A stretch of DNA of 64,000 nucleotides, taken from the NCBI GenBank assembly GCA_036488875.1, contig DASXGW010000013.1, positions 231,281 through 295,280 on the forward strand, read 5' to 3'. The notes beneath the pieces are model-generated. The model made no database searches and was not told where the DNA came from. It worked only from the letters and a program-made list of their open reading frames with translations. Below, in pieces: positions 14,767 to 22,256 of the stretch. Source of the stretch: Candidatus Baltobacteraceae bacterium. GTDB lineage: Bacteria > Vulcanimicrobiota > Vulcanimicrobiia > Vulcanimicrobiales > Vulcanimicrobiaceae. Both the position numbers and the translations under genes were made by a program. How positions within the stretch are numbered: the stretch's first letter is position 1; every line of letters starts with the position of its first letter.

Positions 14767-16587
14767 TTGGAACTGTTGCGATTTTCGGACCTCGAGTGTC
14801 ATTACGGGGCGCGCGAAGTCTTCGCCGGTGCGACCGGTGTTTTCAACGATGGCGAGCGGATCGGCCTGGTCGGTGCGAACGGCGCAGGAAAGACGTCGCT
14901 ATTACGCCTGCTCGCGGGCGTCGAGCCCCCGTTCGGTGGGAAGATCGTTAGGGCGAAAGACGTTCGGCTCGGCTATCTCGCGCAGGGTGTCGCCGATGAA
15001 ACCGAATCTACGCTGCAAGAACTGATCGATCTGGCGCTTGCGAAGGTCGACGCGGAATCGTGGGCGCAGCGCAATAAAGCGCTGCACGTCATGTTAGCGG
15101 CATTCGGCTTTACACCGGCCGAATACCAGCGCCCGCTGCGCGCCTTTTCCGGCGGTCAGCGAGCCAAGGCGGCGCTTGCACATCTTTTGATCGACGAGCC
15201 GGACTTCTTCCTTCTCGACGAGCCGACCAACCATCTCGATATAGGGACGGTGCGATGGCTGGAAACGTTCATCGCAAACGATCGCCGCGGGTATATCGTC
15301 GTTTCGCACGACCGCTATTTTCTCGATCGAATCGCGACGCGAATTTGGGAAATCGAGCGCGCACGATTGCACGCTTACGCGCCTTCGGCCGCGGCCTATA
15401 CCGCATACGTCGCTCAGAAACAAACGCGACTGGAAGAAGAACGGCGAGCCTATGAACGTTTCGTTGCCGAGCGTGATAAGCGACGCGCGACGATCGCCGG
15501 ATTGCGTACCACGCACACCTCGTCGGACTACAGCCAAGTGCGCAGCCGCGAGAAGCAACTTGCGCGCGTCGAGGCGACGGTAGAAGCGCCGGCACCGGTC
15601 GCAGCTCCACGCGGTATCGCGGTACGGCTGGAGAAGGTGCGCCGCGGCGGCGGGTACGTTTTCGAGACGACTGACGTTGGGAAGTCGTACGCCCGCGCGT
15701 TGTTTTCCAATCTCACCGTCCGCGTTGACCGAGGGGAATGTCTTGCCGTCGTCGGCCCGAATGGGTCGGGGAAGTCGACGCTTCTCAAAATCTTGTCCGG
15801 CGAACTTGCGCCCGATGCCGGCTCGGTGCGGTTCAATCCGGCGGCTCAGGTGGCGTACTACGCGCAAAACTCCCACGAGCAACTCAACATGGACGCCAGC
15901 GCCGTAGAAGCTGTGCTGGCGGCATCCGGTGGGACGAATTGGGAGGCGCGAACGTTGCTGGGGCGCATGCGGATCGGCGGCGACGCGGCCGATAAACCGG
16001 TGCGTGACTTTTCAGGCGGCGAGCGGCGGCGAATTATGCTCGCGTGCCTGACGGCCCGCAAAGCCGACGTTCTGTTGCTCGACGAGCCCACTAACGATCT
16101 CGACATCGATAGCCGCGAAGCGTTGGAAAGCGTTCTGAGCGACTACGCGGGTGCGATCGTCGTCGTGTCGCACGACCGCTTCCTGCTCTCACGATTATGC
16201 GATCGCGTCCTTTGGATCGAAAGCGGACAGTGGGGAATCGTCGAGGGTGCCTACGACGATTACGAAGCATCTCAGCGAGACCGCGAGCGTGCTTCCCTCG
16301 AGCAGACGGCCCCCGACACGGAAGAGCGCCCCAAGACGTCGCGCCAAACGCCGTTGCGGATTCGGTCGCAGCTGCAAACGCGAATCGACCGGATCGAACG
16401 CGAGATCGAACGGCTCGACGCTCGGACTGCCGAAATCGAGGCACTATTCGAACAGCCCGAAGTCAACACCGACCACGTGCGATCGTTAGCGCTAAGTAAA
16501 GAACTCGCCGACGTGCGATCGCAAAGCGGCGAACTCGTCGCACGCTGGGAGTCGCTGCACGCCGAGCTCGAAGCGATGGACGCTTAA
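14767..16587 (+). CDS. ABC-F family ATP-binding protein
   Basis: A 606-residue soluble protein with two ABC ATPase domains and no membrane part. Walker A motifs are GANGAGKT (36-43) and GPNGSGKST; signatures are FSGGQRAKAAL and FSGGERRRIML; Walker B motifs are LLDEPTNHLD and LLDEPTNDLD. An interdomain linker rich in charged residues (about 205-255) and a C-terminal coiled coil (about 520-605) complete the Uup/EttA/YdiF-type layout. ABC-F proteins act on the ribosome as translation factors or give antibiotic protection. TTG 14767 is used as the start because the first beta-strand follows directly. Its stop overlaps that of the convergent gene. Confidence 0.92.
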   Translation: MELLRFSDLECHYGAREVFAGATGVFNDGERIGLVGANGAGKTSLLRLLAGVEPPFGGKIVRAKDVRLGYLAQGVADETESTLQELIDLALAKVDAESWAQRNKALHVMLAAFGFTPAEYQRPLRAFSGGQRAKAALAHLLIDEPDFFLLDEPTNHLDIGTVRWLETFIANDRRGYIVVSHDRYFLDRIATRIWEIERARLHAYAPSAAAYTAYVAQKQTRLEEERRAYERFVAERDKRRATIAGLRTTHTSSDYSQVRSREKQLARVEATVEAPAPVAAPRGIAVRLEKVRRGGGYVFETTDVGKSYARALFSNLTVRVDRGECLAVVGPNGSGKSTLLKILSGELAPDAGSVRFNPAAQVAYYAQNSHEQLNMDASAVEAVLAASGGTNWEARTLLGRMRIGGDAADKPVRDFSGGERRRIMLACLTARKADVLLLDEPTNDLDIDSREALESVLSDYAGAIVVVSHDRFLLSRLCDRVLWIESGQWGIVEGAYDDYEASQRDRERASLEQTAPDTEERPKTSRQTPLRIRSQLQTRIDRIEREIERLDARTAEIEALFEQPEVNTDHVRSLALSKELADVRSQSGELVARWESLHAELEAMDA

Positions 16588-17555
16588 AGCGTCGACTGCA
16601 CTTCTCCGTAGAACGACGGCCACTTGGTCGATGGAACGAGATCCTCCGCGGCGTACCACCAGAAGCCGGCGCGGGTGAAGCGCGTCAAACTCGGCGGAAC
16701 GATCGACATATAGTACGAGAAGATGCTCTGCGCGTCCGAAAGCGAGCCGGTGGTAATGGGGGCAGCCATGCCGATCTCGCCAAAGCCGACCCTGGCGTTG
16801 GGAAAGTCGGCTGCCAAACGCGCGAAAATCTTGTTCCACTGCGCGACGCTGGGCCGCGCACCGTAGTTCCCGGCTTCGTAATACGAAACCAGTACGTAGC
16901 GCAGGCCGCGATGCATCGAAGCCGGCACGTAGGTGCGCTCCCACGAAATCATGTCGTATCCGGGCGTCACCCACTTCGGGACCTGGTAGTAGAGCGTCAT
17001 TTCCGTCGTCAGCCCGCGCGCGCTGACGATGTCGTACATGGCCTTCACCTTCGACATCACGTCGTTCGCCTGGGCGGCGCATTCGTGCGACGAAGGGCAG
17101 CGCACTCTGCTCAGCCATTCGCCATTGACTTCGTTGCCGATCTCCCAGAGATCCGTATCGCTCGCGAGTGCGTTCACGTACGCCTTCGTGCGCGCCTTGA
17201 TTTGAGCGAGCGAATAGCGTTTGATCGAAGAACTGTCGGCCAGTTCGCCCATGGTATGCGCCGATTGGTGCAAGGCGTGCATCCCCGACGCGTAGCACGA
17301 CGGCCCGATTGGATCGAACACCACGCGAACCGTCGGACGATTCAGCGCCTTCACTGTCGCCAGCTCGTCCGAACTCACGCCGCACCGGCTCGAGAGATCG
17401 TCGTAGGTTATGCCGCGCAGGTTCGCAGGCAGCGCGAATGCGTTGCGCGCGGCCACGCCCGGTTGCGGCATTTGAGCGATCGGCGGAGCGCCCGCGGGAC
17501 CGCCAGTGCATGCCGCAACGCCGAGAAGCAAAACGACTGCGATAGTTCTACGCAT
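16584..17555 (-). CDS. Glycoside hydrolase-like lipoprotein (TIM-barrel, clan GH-A type)
   Basis: A 323-residue protein starting at ATG 17555 with signal peptide MRRTIAVVLLLGVAAC and lipobox (VAAC). An upstream extension is not supported. The mature part looks like a (beta/alpha)8 glycosidase. LWEIGNEVNGEW puts a candidate acid/base Glu at residue 142 after Asn141, and VGFGEIGM a candidate nucleophile at Glu260. Such enzymes hydrolyse glycosides at the cell surface; the substrate cannot be deduced. Overlaps the end of the ABC-F gene. A TATAA-like AT-rich patch at 17560-17590 may carry the promoter. Confidence 0.7.
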   Translation of the reverse strand: MRRTIAVVLLLGVAACTGGPAGAPPIAQMPQPGVAARNAFALPANLRGITYDDLSSRCGVSSDELATVKALNRPTVRVVFDPIGPSCYASGMHALHQSAHTMGELADSSSIKRYSLAQIKARTKAYVNALASDTDLWEIGNEVNGEWLSRVRCPSSHECAAQANDVMSKVKAMYDIVSARGLTTEMTLYYQVPKWVTPGYDMISWERTYVPASMHRGLRYVLVSYYEAGNYGARPSVAQWNKIFARLAADFPNARVGFGEIGMAAPITTGSLSDAQSIFSYYMSIVPPSLTRFTRAGFWWYAAEDLVPSTKWPSFYGEVQSTL

Positions 17556-17610
17556 GCAGTTGTATTTATACTCGGGGCGATATGATAACCTTTGCCGGCC
17601 TGTAGTCGTT

Positions 17611-19365
17611 TCACTCTTGTTTGCCGCCCTGGATCCAATCGGCAAAAGCCGCGACCTTTTCTGGTGTCCAAGCGCCGTCGCACGGCATCGTACCAGCTTT
17701 GACCCGCTCGAGTATCGCGTCGGCATGAGCGCTTACGTCGGCATACGCCCACAGATCGAATGCAAATTGCATCGATTTGCGATCGCGCTCTCGAAAAAGC
17801 GCTTTAACGTGCTTGGCGAAACTGACCGGCTCGCCCGGAGCCGGCAAGTCCACTTGAACTTCTTCGTGCGGCGCTAGCGCCGATACACGGCTGCCCGGCG
17901 GTCCGGCGCTGGTGGTCCACTCCCAGTGAGGCATCGGCATGTGCTGCGGAGGCTGCGCGTTGGTCTGCGAGTTTTCAACGGCCAAGCGCGATCCCCACTC
18001 GATGTACGCCTGGAACGCGGAGCGGAACTCGGGATCGTTCGGAAGACCGGATTCACGCGCAGATTGCAACAAGAGCGTGACCCAGCGAGCGCGCATTTCT
18101 TCGGTGAGGCATTTGCCGAGATGCTGCGAGAGCATACGCGGATAGCCGCCGTACTCCGAGCTATAACGTTTTGGGCCGCCGAAGACCTCGCCTAACCACT
18201 TCGCCACTCGTTGCGGATGATCGGCGGACATATTTGCGAACAGCGGTGCAAGCAAATCGTCCGCGGGCACGAATTTTTCGTAAAATAGGCGAGTCATGCG
18301 CGTGAGTGCGGGCAGCCCTCCCGCCCACTCGAAAATCGAAGGCTGGCGGTCCGGCGGCGGTAGGGGATCACGAAACTCGACGTACCAGTGCATCCCGGTA
18401 CAAAATGGTTTATTCTGCGCGTGACCGCACCGGCATAACGCGCAGTGTTCGAAGGACGCACCGGCATTACGAACGACATCGTTGCCTTGGTCGTCACGTA
18501 GCGCAATCGGACCGGTGACGCGATACGGGCCGTCTTTAGAGACTTCAATCGCCGGTTGTCGCCGGCCGTGCCAATTGACATCTGCTCGCGCCTCGACGCC
18601 ATCGACCGCATAGCTCAGAGCACCGGACGGGCAGTCGCGAACCGCGCGAATAATCTCGTCCATGCGGCCGCCGCTCGGCGCGACGAACGGCTCGCTTTTC
18701 GTCCGGAACACCTTGCTCAGGCGGTCGCTGCAGTAGCCGGAATGCTGACACGTGCCGCGATTATCCAAGATCGTGACCTGCTGACCCACGTAGACGTCTT
18801 GGCGGTCCGGTACCCGTTTGGGATCCTTCGCATCATCGAAGCCGATCTTCGCGTGGCTGCCGTCGCAGTACGGTTTGATCGCGGACGCACCGCAACGGCA
18901 AAGAGCCATCTGCGGAAATGCAGACAACGGCTCGCCCAGCCACGTGACCAGGTTCTTTACATTGGTAACTAACAGCGGACCGTTGTGTGAAAGGCGTATT
19001 TCGGCATCTAACCCGTTATAGAGCGCTTCGAGTTCGGCAATGCGTGCCGCGACTGCGTTCGCGTCCGACGACACTTCGGCGCATGCAAGCTGCGCAAGCG
19101 CGGCAGTAGCCTCAAGCAACGCAGTCGGCGGAAGTCCCTCGCGACGCCACGCTGCTGCGCGTTTCGCCAGATCCCATAGCGACTCGGCCGGCTCGTGCGC
19201 GAGCTGAGGTAGATCGTCTTCGCTACCGGCTAGTGCCGTCAATGGGCGAATAACCGAATCATCGAGCCGCGCGGCGACGCCATCGCTGCCTCCATCGTCT
19301 AAAGAAGCGCGCAACCGGCGCACGCCGGAAAGTAGGTCTCTATAGGTCGAAGCGGTTGTGGGCAT
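17611..19365 (-). CDS. Multidomain CDGSH iron-sulfur / truncated haemoglobin fusion protein
   Basis: A 584-residue cytoplasmic protein; ATG 19365 follows AAGGAGAG. The N-terminal helical region (1-130) is of unknown type. The first CDGSH-type 2Fe-2S motif has ligands C156, C158, C167 and H171. A divergent ferredoxin-like segment (C206, C212, C245 in DCPSGAL) follows. The second CDGSH-like motif (C311, C313, C322, H326) has TGMH in place of DGSH. A group-2 truncated globin spans about 343-465 (candidate proximal His415), and the C-terminal tail carries MPCDGAWTPEKVAAFADWI, reminiscent of the end of cytochrome c domains but without CXXCH. Redox sensing or NO/O2 chemistry is plausible but unproven. 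Confidence 0.85.
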   Translation of the reverse strand: MPTTASTYRDLLSGVRRLRASLDDGGSDGVAARLDDSVIRPLTALAGSEDDLPQLAHEPAESLWDLAKRAAAWRREGLPPTALLEATAALAQLACAEVSSDANAVAARIAELEALYNGLDAEIRLSHNGPLLVTNVKNLVTWLGEPLSAFPQMALCRCGASAIKPYCDGSHAKIGFDDAKDPKRVPDRQDVYVGQQVTILDNRGTCQHSGYCSDRLSKVFRTKSEPFVAPSGGRMDEIIRAVRDCPSGALSYAVDGVEARADVNWHGRRQPAIEVSKDGPYRVTGPIALRDDQGNDVVRNAGASFEHCALCRCGHAQNKPFCTGMHWYVEFRDPLPPPDRQPSIFEWAGGLPALTRMTRLFYEKFVPADDLLAPLFANMSADHPQRVAKWLGEVFGGPKRYSSEYGGYPRMLSQHLGKCLTEEMRARWVTLLLQSARESGLPNDPEFRSAFQAYIEWGSRLAVENSQTNAQPPQHMPMPHWEWTTSAGPPGSRVSALAPHEEVQVDLPAPGEPVSFAKHVKALFRERDRKSMQFAFDLWAYADVSAHADAILERVKAGTMPCDGAWTPEKVAAFADWIQGGKQE

Positions 19366-19479
19366 TTTCTCTCCTTGGCACCCTAGAATGTCGGGTCGCC
19401 TCCGTTCGGTTGCGCCCATAATCGCCGGGGCAGGCTAGCTAGCGACGCACTACTAATCCAAAATGCAAAAGGAGCTCCA

Positions 19480-19677
19480 ATGCACGTGATTTTATCAACA
19501 ACGCTCCTCGCGGTTCTCGTCATGCCGGTCTATCCGGAAGCGCAGCCCGGAACTGCAGCGCCTCCGCTAGCTTCGGCGCGCGGGACGCGTTCGATGCACG
19601 GTAAGCGATTCGATGTGGTCGAGTATTGCGTCGACCGCGGCCTCCAACGGTTTGGTATTGCGCCGAAGCTGCGTTAA
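19480..19677 (+). pseudogene. Possible truncated secreted-protein gene (signal peptide only)
   Basis: An AAGGAGCTCCA ribosome site precedes ATG 19480. The first 20 codons encode a signal-peptide-like stretch (MHVILSTTLLAVLVMPVYPE) and then low-complexity sequence. The frame soon runs antisense into the 3' end of the tetR gene (19567 onward). This looks like the leftover start of an exported-protein gene cut by arrival of the tetR operon; chance is also possible. Confidence 0.3.
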
Positions 19678-20214
19678 TACCAACCCGCCCTGAACGGCCG
19701 CAAGCAGCGCCGTCGCCAACCGATCGGGATCGGCATCCCTTCGCAACTGCCCGCCGGCGTGCATCTCGCGCAATCCGCTTCGAATTCCGTCTTCCCAACG
19801 CGAAAACGCTCGGTTGAGGTCGATTCGGAACTCCGGAACGATCTCGACGATTTCACTCGAAAGGGTTCCCAGCGGACAGCCGCCGGCGCAATGCCCCCCG
19901 CGCTGAATGCGCACGAGCAGATCCCGCCATTCGCGCAAGGCCCGCATGCTGTTGAGATGCCCCAAGAACTCTTTTTGTGCCCCGATGACCGCGTCGGTCT
20001 GGTGGGCGATCACGGCGCGCACGAGAGCCATCTTATCTTTAAAGTAATGGTAGAGTTGCGACGAGCTCACTGCGGCCGCATCGCGGACTTCCTCGGTCGT
20101 CGTCCCCGCTACCCCGCGCTCGTGAATGAGGCGGGCGGCCGCGGCCACGATGCGCTCCCGCGTCGCAAGCCCCTTGGGAGTAAAGCTCTGATCTTTGGCT
20201 GTTAGCGTCCTCAT
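19567..20214 (-). CDS. TetR/AcrR-family transcriptional regulator
   Basis: A 215-residue repressor. The N-terminal helix-turn-helix runs from about residue 15 to 62 (ATRERIVAAAARLIHERG, then TTTEEVRDAAAVSSSQLYHYFKDK). The C-terminal ligand/dimer domain includes GGHCAGGCPLGTL, close to the pattern of TetR_C_11-like regulators (QacR/YxaF type). ATG 20214 is preferred because an upstream TTG at 20250 would overlap the operator. It is divergent from the SDR-DUF417-peroxiredoxin operon and probably represses it and itself through the palindrome at 20244-20272. Confidence 0.9.
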   Translation of the reverse strand: MRTLTAKDQSFTPKGLATRERIVAAAARLIHERGVAGTTTEEVRDAAAVSSSQLYHYFKDKMALVRAVIAHQTDAVIGAQKEFLGHLNSMRALREWRDLLVRIQRGGHCAGGCPLGTLSSEIVEIVPEFRIDLNRAFSRWEDGIRSGLREMHAGGQLRRDADPDRLATALLAAVQGGLVLTQLRRNTKPLEAAVDAILDHIESLTVHRTRPARRS

Positions 20215-20243
20215 CGTTCGAAATCGCCCTTTTTGGAGTTGAT

Positions 20244-20272
20244 AATCCAATTTAGCACACTTATATTGGATT
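20244..20272. promoter_or_regulatory. Palindromic operator between tetR and the redox operon
   Basis: AATCCAAT (20244-20251) and ATTGGATT (20265-20272) are exact 8-bp inverted arms separated by 13 bp. They are centred in the 83-bp divergent intergenic region, which suits binding by the adjacent TetR protein. The AT-rich spacer probably overlaps promoter elements. Confidence 0.7.
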
Positions 20273-20297
20273 TACCACTCCAGTTTAAGGAAAGGCA

Positions 20298-21059
20298 ATG
20301 GATAACAACCGCACCCTTCAAGATCTCAACGGCCGTACCGCCCTCGTCACCGGCGCAACCAGCGGCATCGGCAAAGCAACCGCGCTCGCGCTCGCGCGGC
20401 GTGGAGCGCGTGTTCTTATCTCAGGCCGCGACGAAGTTCGGGGTCAATCCGTCGTGTCGGCTATCCGGGCTGAAAACGGGGCCGCCGATTTCTTGCAAGC
20501 GGACCTCAGCGACGCCGATTCTACGCGGAAGCTAGCGCAGCGCGCACTGGAAATCGCCGGTCGTGTCGACATCCTCGTGAATAACGCCGGCGCCTTCCCG
20601 TTCGGGCCGACCGCGCAAACGCCGCCGGATGTGTTCGACGACGTTTTCGCTACCAACGTGCGGGCGCCGTTTATTCTCGTTGGGGAGTTGGCGCCGAAAA
20701 TGGCGGACCGCGGCAAAGGCGCCATCATCAACCTGAGCAGCATGGTCAGTGAGTTTGGTATGGCGGGAATGGCGCTGTACGGTTCGAGTAAAGCGGCGAT
20801 CAATTTGCTTACGAAGGCGTGGGCCGCGGAGTTTGGCCCCAGTGGCGTGCGAGTGAACGCCGTCAGCCCGGGCCCGACTCGCACGGAAGGAACGGCCGCG
20901 ATGGGGGACGGTCTCGCGCAGCTTGCCGCCGCAGCGCCCGCCGGCCATCCGGCGTCTCCTGAAGAGATCGCCGACGCGATCGTCTATCTTGCTTCCGATC
21001 GCGCAAGTTTCGTGCACGGCGTCGTGCTGCCGGTCGACGGCGGCCGAACGGCCGTATAA
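20298..21059 (+). CDS. Short-chain dehydrogenase/reductase
   Basis: A 253-residue classical SDR. The cofactor loop is TGATSGIGKATAL (18-30), with NNAGAFPFG near 95. The catalytic Ser lies in NLSSMVSEFG, and Tyr/Lys in LYGSSKAAI. The C-terminal HGVVLPVDGGRTAV tail is standard. It oxidises or reduces an unknown carbonyl/alcohol substrate with NAD(P). AAGGAAAGG precedes the ATG. It is the first gene of an operon (next gene 11 bp downstream) under the divergent TetR regulator. Such TetR-SDR pairs usually respond to electrophiles or xenobiotics; that is inference. Confidence 0.93.
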   Translation: MDNNRTLQDLNGRTALVTGATSGIGKATALALARRGARVLISGRDEVRGQSVVSAIRAENGAADFLQADLSDADSTRKLAQRALEIAGRVDILVNNAGAFPFGPTAQTPPDVFDDVFATNVRAPFILVGELAPKMADRGKGAIINLSSMVSEFGMAGMALYGSSKAAINLLTKAWAAEFGPSGVRVNAVSPGPTRTEGTAAMGDGLAQLAAAAPAGHPASPEEIADAIVYLASDRASFVHGVVLPVDGGRTAV

Positions 21060-21070
21060 AGGAGCGATCA

Positions 21071-21562
21071 ATGACGACGACAACCCTTCGGAGATCTCGC
21101 ACGACCGACGTAGCCGCTTTCTCAACGAGAGCCGGGTTATGGATCGGACGCTATGGACTAGTCGCGATACTCCTACTTATCGGAGGCTTGAAGTTCACGC
21201 ACGGCGAGGCTTTAGGAATCCAGCCGCTGGTCTCTCACAGCCCGCTCATGTCTTGGATGTACTCGCTGACCGGCGTGGACGGCGTTTCACGCGCGATCGG
21301 TACGATCGAGATCGCGGTAGCGTTACTCATCGCGTCGCGGCCGATATCGGCGATCGCGTCGGCGGCCGGCAGCCTTTTGGCAATCGTCACCTTTCTCACC
21401 ACGCTCTCTTTTCTGCTGAGTACTCCCGGCGTATGGGCACCGGCCTTCCCCGCACTATCGGGTACGGGCGCATTCCTCATCAAGGACCTTTGCCTGTTGG
21501 CCTGTGCCGCGTTCACGGCCGGGGAAGCACTCGCAGCTGCGGCGAGCAAAGGAGCGGTGTAA
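21071..21562 (+). CDS. DUF417 (YkgB/RclC-like) membrane protein
   Basis: A 163-residue inner membrane protein with four hydrophobic segments (LVAILLLIGGLKFTHGEALGI; AIGTIEIAVALLIAS; AGSLLAIVTFLTTLSFLLS; C-terminal DLCLLACAAFTAGEAL). The pattern GGLKFTHGEA...PLVSHSPLMSW and the late TPGVW...GTGAFLIKDL match DUF417. The family includes RclC, part of the reactive-chlorine response of enteric bacteria. Its place between an SDR and a peroxiredoxin-like gene supports an oxidative-stress role. The next start is 2 bp after its stop. Confidence 0.85.
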   Translation: MTTTTLRRSRTTDVAAFSTRAGLWIGRYGLVAILLLIGGLKFTHGEALGIQPLVSHSPLMSWMYSLTGVDGVSRAIGTIEIAVALLIASRPISAIASAAGSLLAIVTFLTTLSFLLSTPGVWAPAFPALSGTGAFLIKDLCLLACAAFTAGEALAAAASKGAV

Positions 21563-21563
21563 C

Positions 21564-22256
21564 GTGTCGTTGGCAGATCAGCTAGCTAAACTAAAGCACG
21601 ATTTCGAGGCAAAAGCACCGCCGGAGACGATAGAAAAAATACACCGAGCTACGGCGGAGCTCGCGCGCTCCGGGATCCTCGAGCGCACGCTGAAGAAAGG
21701 CGATCTCGCTCCCGAGTTCGTGCTTCCCGACGTCAACGGCGTCCCGGTATCCTCGGCGGACCTCCGGCGAAACGGTCCCTTAATCGTCAGCTTCTTCCGA
21801 GGTAAATGGTGCCCGTACTGCAATCTGGAGTTGTCGGCGCTGGCTAAAATCTATCCGCGCGTCAAAGAGCTTGGGGCGGAGCTGGTCGTGATCTCGCCGC
21901 AAAAAAGTGAGTTCAGCGCCGACCTCGTGAAGCCATATCGCATCGGGTTTCCCATACTGCGCGATTTCCACAACGAAATCGCGGAACAATTCGGAATCGC
22001 TTTTACGCTGCCGGAGTATCTCGACGCACTCTACCGTGAGTTCGGGAACGACTCAAAGGCCTGGAACGAGACCGAGGTTTGGCAGTTGCCGATACCGGCG
22101 CGGTTCCTCATCACGCCTGACGGAACGATTGCCGATGCGGAGGTTAACCCGGACTACACCGTTCGACCGGAGCCCGAAACGATTCTCGAGCGGCTCAAAG
22201 CGCTGAAAGCACCGGGAGTCATCCAAAATCCTACGAAGGACGTATTGCGAGCATGA
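21564..22256 (+). CDS. Peroxiredoxin-like protein (AhpC/TSA family)
   Basis: A 230-residue thioredoxin-fold protein. GTG 21564 is chosen since AAAGGAGC lies just upstream and the helical N-terminus starts there. The active site is FFRGKWCPYCNLEL (CxxC), like the PRX-like2/AhpC-TSA subgroup rather than typical 2-Cys peroxiredoxins. The C-terminus includes PARFLITPDGTIADAEVNPDYT. It probably reduces peroxides or thiols in the cytoplasm. It overlaps the next start by 4 bp (ATGA). Confidence 0.88.
   Translation: MSLADQLAKLKHDFEAKAPPETIEKIHRATAELARSGILERTLKKGDLAPEFVLPDVNGVPVSSADLRRNGPLIVSFFRGKWCPYCNLELSALAKIYPRVKELGAELVVISPQKSEFSADLVKPYRIGFPILRDFHNEIAEQFGIAFTLPEYLDALYREFGNDSKAWNETEVWQLPIPARFLITPDGTIADAEVNPDYTVRPEPETILERLKALKAPGVIQNPTKDVLRA

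Follow-up and report, generated by a model that had tools for sequence, protein, structure and literature searches.

The window, a 64,000-nucleotide stretch of a Candidatus Baltobacteraceae genome (G000:C13:231281-295280), contains on its minus strand a gene at 17611-19365, with its ATG at 19365 and a TGA stop codon at 17611-17613. The gene is located inside a large contig and codes for a protein of 584 residues that shares 60-71% identity with six relatives. An AAGGAG sequence directly upstream of the ATG (19371-19376, minus strand) is a likely ribosome-binding site. The first-pass annotation had placed a single coding sequence in this interval and had singled out residues C206, C212, C245, C311, C313, C322, H326 and H415; the coordinates are correct and all eight residues are present. 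A 380-residue frame with no Pfam match lies at 16584-17726 on the same strand, and its first possible start overlaps the end of the gene.

Pfam searches returned two zf-CDGSH domains (E-value 1.6e-30), a Fer4_19 domain (residues 192-253, 3.3e-17) and a Bac_globin domain (residues 343-439, 1.1e-9), all above the curated cut-offs. This profile search agrees with the earlier description of two CDGSH motifs, a ferredoxin-like segment and a group-2 truncated globin in one chain. No matches above the Pfam cut-offs were found for the first 118 and the last 72 residues, and no NCBIfam family matches the fusion protein. Starting from the N terminus, the protein is composed of a helical stub with five predicted helices (residues 1-118, 19012-19365), a first CDGSH domain (residues 122-177, 18835-19002; PF09360, detected in two stretches), a single-cluster ferredoxin-like Fer4_19 domain (residues 192-253, 18607-18792; PF06902), a second CDGSH domain (residues 278-327, 18385-18534; PF09360), a group II truncated globin with a C-terminal extension that ends in PHWEW (residues 338-490, 17896-18354; PF01152) and a helical tail (residues 513-584, 17614-17829), whose model has a pLDDT of 75.6. 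The mean pLDDT of the full-length model is 63, with values below 50 over residues 175-267 and 314-341. The Fer4_19 and second CDGSH domains are thus modelled with low confidence, and neither the cluster sites nor the distances between domains can be read from the model.

The same fusion is present in 13 genomes of Candidatus Eremiobacterota, Chloroflexota and Actinomycetota. Seven of them are the window genome, a Candidatus Eremiobacterota MAG (L001, whose protein is the same as that of L010), a Chloroflexota MAG, Actinacidiphila, Nocardia, a Geodermatophilaceae MAG and an actinobacterial MAG. Six more fusions were collected, seeds excluded, from 2 of 394 sampled genomes of the class of Actinacidiphila and 4 of 301 sampled genomes of the phylum to which the Chloroflexota MAG belongs. 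The full form is harboured by 2 of the 149 genomes of the window's own phylum. In a 34-row tree of the Fe-S core, the 13 fusions form a single clade with support of 100/98. The nearest rows to this clade are three proteins devoid of globin, two of them from genomes of the Chloroflexota sample and one from the L002 genome. Eighteen Eremiobacterota non-globin rows are set apart (support 100/99, midpoint root); they represent 18 of the 24 such genomes that matched at E<=1e-60. The window gene and L060 group with the Nocardia row (support 90/83), and based on this pairing the window gene was likely acquired horizontally. A chance or artefactual joining of neighbouring genes is hardly credible, given the identical domain order in 13 genomes of three phyla, the single clade and the position of the gene inside a large contig; nothing was found in favour of such an origin, and we consider the fusion genuine. 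The 13 proteins differ in their front ends: five carry a Ferritin-like domain (L049, L050, L051, L052 and L057), seven are short and one frame begins with a kinase domain.

Both CDGSH copies of the window protein have the complete C-x-C-x8-C-x3-H ligand set (C156, C158, C167 and H171 in the first, C311, C313, C322 and H326 in the second). The second copy reads CTGMH, and a C(S/T)GMH motif is found at this position in all 13 fusions. Among the 21 non-globin rows, three have CSGMH or CSGQH and the other 18 CDG(S/T)H; the altered motif is therefore not tied to the globin. The Fer4_19 domain scores 62.7 bits against a cut-off of 24 and includes the cysteines of C-x5-C and CPSGAL motifs. Its three Cys residues (C206, C212 and C245) are a feature of all 13 fusions, shared by the three non-globin rows nearest to them, and 17 of the 18 Eremiobacterota non-globin rows (L011-L028) have an additional Cys next to the first one. 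Three-Cys versions also occur in a Roseobacter plasmid protein and in L105, so this number is not odd for Fer4_19. The suggestion that the altered second CDGSH motif binds an unusual cluster was not borne out, as its three-Cys, one-His set is intact. The same three Cys recur in other Fer4_19 proteins, and the cluster of this domain may be of the [3Fe-4S] or the [4Fe-4S] type. In two relatives, L049:2187-5528 (CDGAC) and L033:384-2447 (CDGTC), the first CDGSH motif ends in Cys rather than His, and judging from this motif it could be a four-Cys cluster site.

This arrangement of two CDGSH motifs and one Fer4_19 domain with complete ligands is shared with the class II CDGSH proteins with Fer4_19 of the NEET family (PMC5859297). 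Combinations of CDGSH with Fer4_19 and with Ferritin-like domains are already published there. The partners of CDGSH domains named in that paper include Ferritin-like, Rieske and Glu_synthase domains, and nowhere does its text use the word globin. CDGSH proteins are also able to transfer whole clusters (PMC5859297), a process that would not need electron flow to a haem. It is conceivable that the protein senses or supplies iron-sulfur through its CDGSH and Fer4_19 clusters, its globin detecting O2 or NO but having no catalytic role. Cluster transfer by CDGSH domains is in keeping with such a sensor or cluster-repair function, as is a Ser/Thr kinase domain that precedes the Fe-S and globin parts in frame in one relative (L005/L033, L005:4329-6392). 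However, that frame comes from a single metagenome contig, its kinase domain is cut off, it has no tail and it is possibly an assembly fault; in Pfam scans, the remaining 12 fusions show no domain for signalling. We therefore consider a sensor or repair role quite improbable.

The model of the globin part matches 5d1v with a TM-score of 0.84 by target length, a Z-score of 15.7 and an rmsd of 2.1 over 121 residues. Further fold matches are the group II truncated globins 5v3t and 2bmm, and the globin part also matches this group by sequence. Structure prediction thus bears out the proposed group-2 assignment. We take Tyr362 to be B10, Phe376 to be CD1, His415 to be the proximal F8 residue and Trp428 to be G8. 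Tyr362, His415 and Trp428 are invariant in our alignment A1; across the 13 fusions, the haem-pocket Tyr and His are present in 12 and the Trp in all. The fusion is the only PF01152 match in the window genome. Since Fe-S sites and a haem globin are found side by side in a single chain that is real and conserved, intramolecular electron transfer between them, as the first-pass annotation had proposed, is a reasonable inference from the domain content, in either direction.

Pairing a globin with a built-in electron supply is known from flavohaemoglobins and from nitrate reductase-truncated globin fusions (PMC3820574). Those fusions use flavin reductase domains, whereas the window protein has Fe-S domains and, by Pfam, no FAD- or NAD-binding domain. 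The same source argues for donors of the ferredoxin-reductase type for truncated globins. The protein might act in stress defence as a hydroperoxide peroxidase or NO dioxygenase, the globin working like free group II globins and the Fe-S module serving as its built-in reductant. In Bacillus subtilis, the group II globin YjbI guards against protein hydroperoxidation (PMC9536834), and a truncated globin of Roseobacter has peroxidase activity (PMC4319818). The genetic environment could point the same way: upstream of the fusion gene, at 19567-22256, a TetR gene shares its strand and SDR, DUF417 and AhpC-TSA genes are divergent, together a possible redox-stress unit, although this is a weak hint. 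Nevertheless, this neighbourhood is not conserved in the relatives. When 16 neighbourhoods were compared all against all, matches beyond the family itself were scattered, with no recurring direct neighbour and no conserved electron supplier. In addition, the globin domain is closer to free globins of the HolF type (51-58% identity) than to the group II globins in the PDB (20-29%). A role in stress defence is thus possible, but we consider it rather unlikely.

The nearest free-standing globins that we found are those of Nonomuraea (58%), Streptomyces finlayi (54%) and the thiomarinol plasmid pTML1 of Pseudoalteromonas SANK 73390 (51%). They share with the window globin a C-terminal extension with a P-x-W-x-W-like end. 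Downstream of an NRPS gene on pTML1, the globin gene is flanked by an acetyltransferase and a flavoprotein gene, and from this position we identify it as holF. HlmG, Hom2 and HolF are listed as globin in Table 3 of a paper on dithiolopyrrolone clusters (PMC3826145), which elsewhere names HolF a flavin-dependent oxygenase. The three proteins share the globin subtype and the P-x-W-x-W extension with the window globin. HolF, which is 51% identical, is free-standing with 154 residues and has neither Fe-S module nor tail, unlike the window protein. The S. finlayi gene (L090:5004-5468) is located on a plasmid, near genes for a SARP regulator, methyltransferases, an FAD oxidoreductase and a flavoprotein, possibly in a biosynthetic cluster.

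The tail had been described as cytochrome-like but lacking CXXCH. The absence of CXXCH was confirmed; the likeness to cytochromes was not, as the tail matches nothing in Pfam at E<=1 and gave no match to the cytochrome c fold (none in Foldseek at E<=0.001, best Z-score 2.3), and a cytochrome identity is not supported. A profile of seven tails (A2) run against the PDB instead matched residues 659-744 of AsqI (5yy2), with E-values of 1e-5 for the whole chain and 1.4e-4 for the stretch; the next match was at 0.81. AsqI is a hemocyanin-like Aspergillus enzyme (PMC6053404) whose C-terminal ~85 residues are thus akin to the tail. No other part of the window protein matches it, and the main text of PMC6053404 never uses the term C-terminal. 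5yy2 is absent from the Foldseek list of the tail model, so the relation to AsqI is one of sequence, from the profile match.

Free-standing frames of 79-104 residues resembling the tail are found at five Eremiobacterota loci, one of them in the window genome (L062:6048-6284; the others are L063-L066). They have no common partner, and no tyrosinase was found among 20 flanking frames scanned. Six records of a plasmid collection also contain tail matches, and we analysed the neighbourhoods of five of them, all but Caballeronia SBC2. In each of the three annotated ones, two from one Bradyrhizobium species and one from Mesorhizobium, a tyrosinase gene lies a few genes away from the tail at most. 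The tail on the Embleya plasmid adjoins a Ferritin-like frame, and neither a tyrosinase nor a Ferritin-like frame was found near that of Caballeronia SBC1. Based on these associations, the tail may serve metal-dependent oxygen enzymes as an accessory.

Together, the relatives of the globin and of the tail raise the prospect of oxidative tailoring, in which the haem, or the ancestral di-iron site, would oxidize a small molecule, as may hold for HolF, and the tail would be an accessory domain that AsqI and tyrosinase-linked proteins have too. The kinship of the globin to HolF and to the S. finlayi gene, which has a SARP regulator, methyltransferases and an FAD oxidoreductase as neighbours, is consistent with such a function, as is that of the tail to AsqI and to copies near tyrosinase genes. 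However, no biosynthetic cluster lies beside the window gene and the relatives have no conserved neighbour, and the literature consulted does not establish what HolF itself does. This makes tailoring unlikely in our view.

The helical stub, which had been regarded as an unknown domain, has relatives. In globin-less proteins, among them the sister rows of the fusion clade and those of Eremiobacterota, the same Fe-S module comes after a helical stretch that is itself preceded by a Ferritin-like domain (PF12902). Residues 6-333 of the window protein align with the helical stretch and the CDGSH-Fer4_19-CDGSH core of three of them (L012, L013 and L021), and residues 1-118 match the helices that follow the Ferritin-like domain. 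The window protein thus has the Fe-S core and preceding helical stretch of these proteins, with a globin and a tail instead of the Ferritin-like domain. Based on this alignment, the stub appears to be the remnant of an older protein's front half. A resemblance of residues 1-105 to mini-bacterioferritin was set aside, with a VIA-align Z-score (9.8) under the level that the tool considers meaningful for helical bundles.

PF12902 has no match in the window protein by Pfam, nor in the window genome. In the 1035 bases upstream of the window gene, where the TetR gene is located, no Ferritin-like remnant was recognized by eye in three frames. Among the eight genomes with short or kinase-fronted forms, PF12902 is absent elsewhere in six and present in two (G149 and G151). 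The idea that a separate gene supplies a Ferritin-like partner to the short forms was given up on this count.

We aligned the Ferritin-like domains of 25 long forms with three separate PF12902 proteins; L101 is not part of the counts, and L057, whose open frame was used from beyond the first part of the domain, has no column 194. Columns 194, 241, 424 and 439 are those that we take to be iron ligands, from the E-x-x-H pattern of ferritin-like proteins. All four are changed in two fusions, L050 and L051: the Glu of column 194 to Ala or Lys, the Glu of E-x-x-H in column 241 to Arg in both, the Glu of QGE in column 424 to Thr or Asp, and the His of AHF in column 439 to Arg or Ser. The other readable rows retain column 194 in 25 of 25 cases and columns 241, 424 and 439 in 26 of 26. 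L050 and L051 are the earliest branch of the fusion clade and sister rows, and the loss may thus be a single event. The Ferritin-like domain of L049, L052 and L057, fused before the helical stub, is a different one and its E-x-x-H motif looks intact; replacement is therefore not universal. The globin of L052 (L052:7615-11253, G690) is devoid of the proximal His and the B10 Tyr and falls below Pfam detection at E<=0.01. Thus, among the five long fusions, a small set, two have the haem site alone, one the Ferritin-like motif alone and two have both.

These features are consistent with the reading that we prefer, and to which we give about an even chance: the fusion would be a haem-based redox enzyme that carries its own Fe-S wiring, descended from Ferritin-like-fronted Fe-S proteins, in which the haem took over from a di-iron centre. 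The ancestor would have had the same Fe-S module behind a Ferritin-like, probably di-iron, domain; a globin would then have been added, after which the di-iron site would have decayed and the Ferritin-like domain been lost, leaving the helical stub. An outside reductase would feed electrons into the CDGSH/Fer4_19/CDGSH module, from which they would reach the group II truncated globin and its haem. Such electrons could keep the haem iron ferrous and drive the reduction of O2 or a peroxide, or return the haem to its reduced state once NO has been dioxygenated. The occupancy of the metal sites, the direction of electron flow, the reaction and the role of the tail are what we infer. Pfam detects no reductase, flavin or nucleotide domain in the fusion chain; the missing reductase counts against this model, as do the lack of a conserved neighbour gene that might provide electrons, the globins with a tail but no Fe-S module, and the capacity of CDGSH proteins for cluster transfer.

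More tentatively, and short of an even chance, the haem globin and the non-haem di-iron domain may be interchangeable heads on one Fe-S relay, one being dispensable as long as the other is intact, and the Fe-S module may be the natural donor of group II truncated globins. If so, the family would record the replacement of a di-iron by a haem centre within one polypeptide, suggesting that oxygen-reacting iron centres were swapped on the same electrical wiring during evolution. The long and short forms would then offer a rare test of whether a haem site can assume the task of a di-iron site on one scaffold. Each of the domains is known singly. Our search of largely open literature yielded no paper on a CDGSH-globin fusion; the most interesting aspect of this fusion is the proposed exchange of centres. 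What naturally supplies electrons to most truncated globins is a matter of debate, and a fusion conserved across phyla represents a concrete candidate that can be expressed.

Lastly, two genomes of the Chloroflexota sample (G789 and G845) encode a globin with a tail and have no relative of the CDGSH-Fer4_19 module at E<=1e-4, indicating that the haem part can exist without the relay. On the contig of L052, a separate Ferritin-like frame of 538 residues is located ~9 kb from the fusion.
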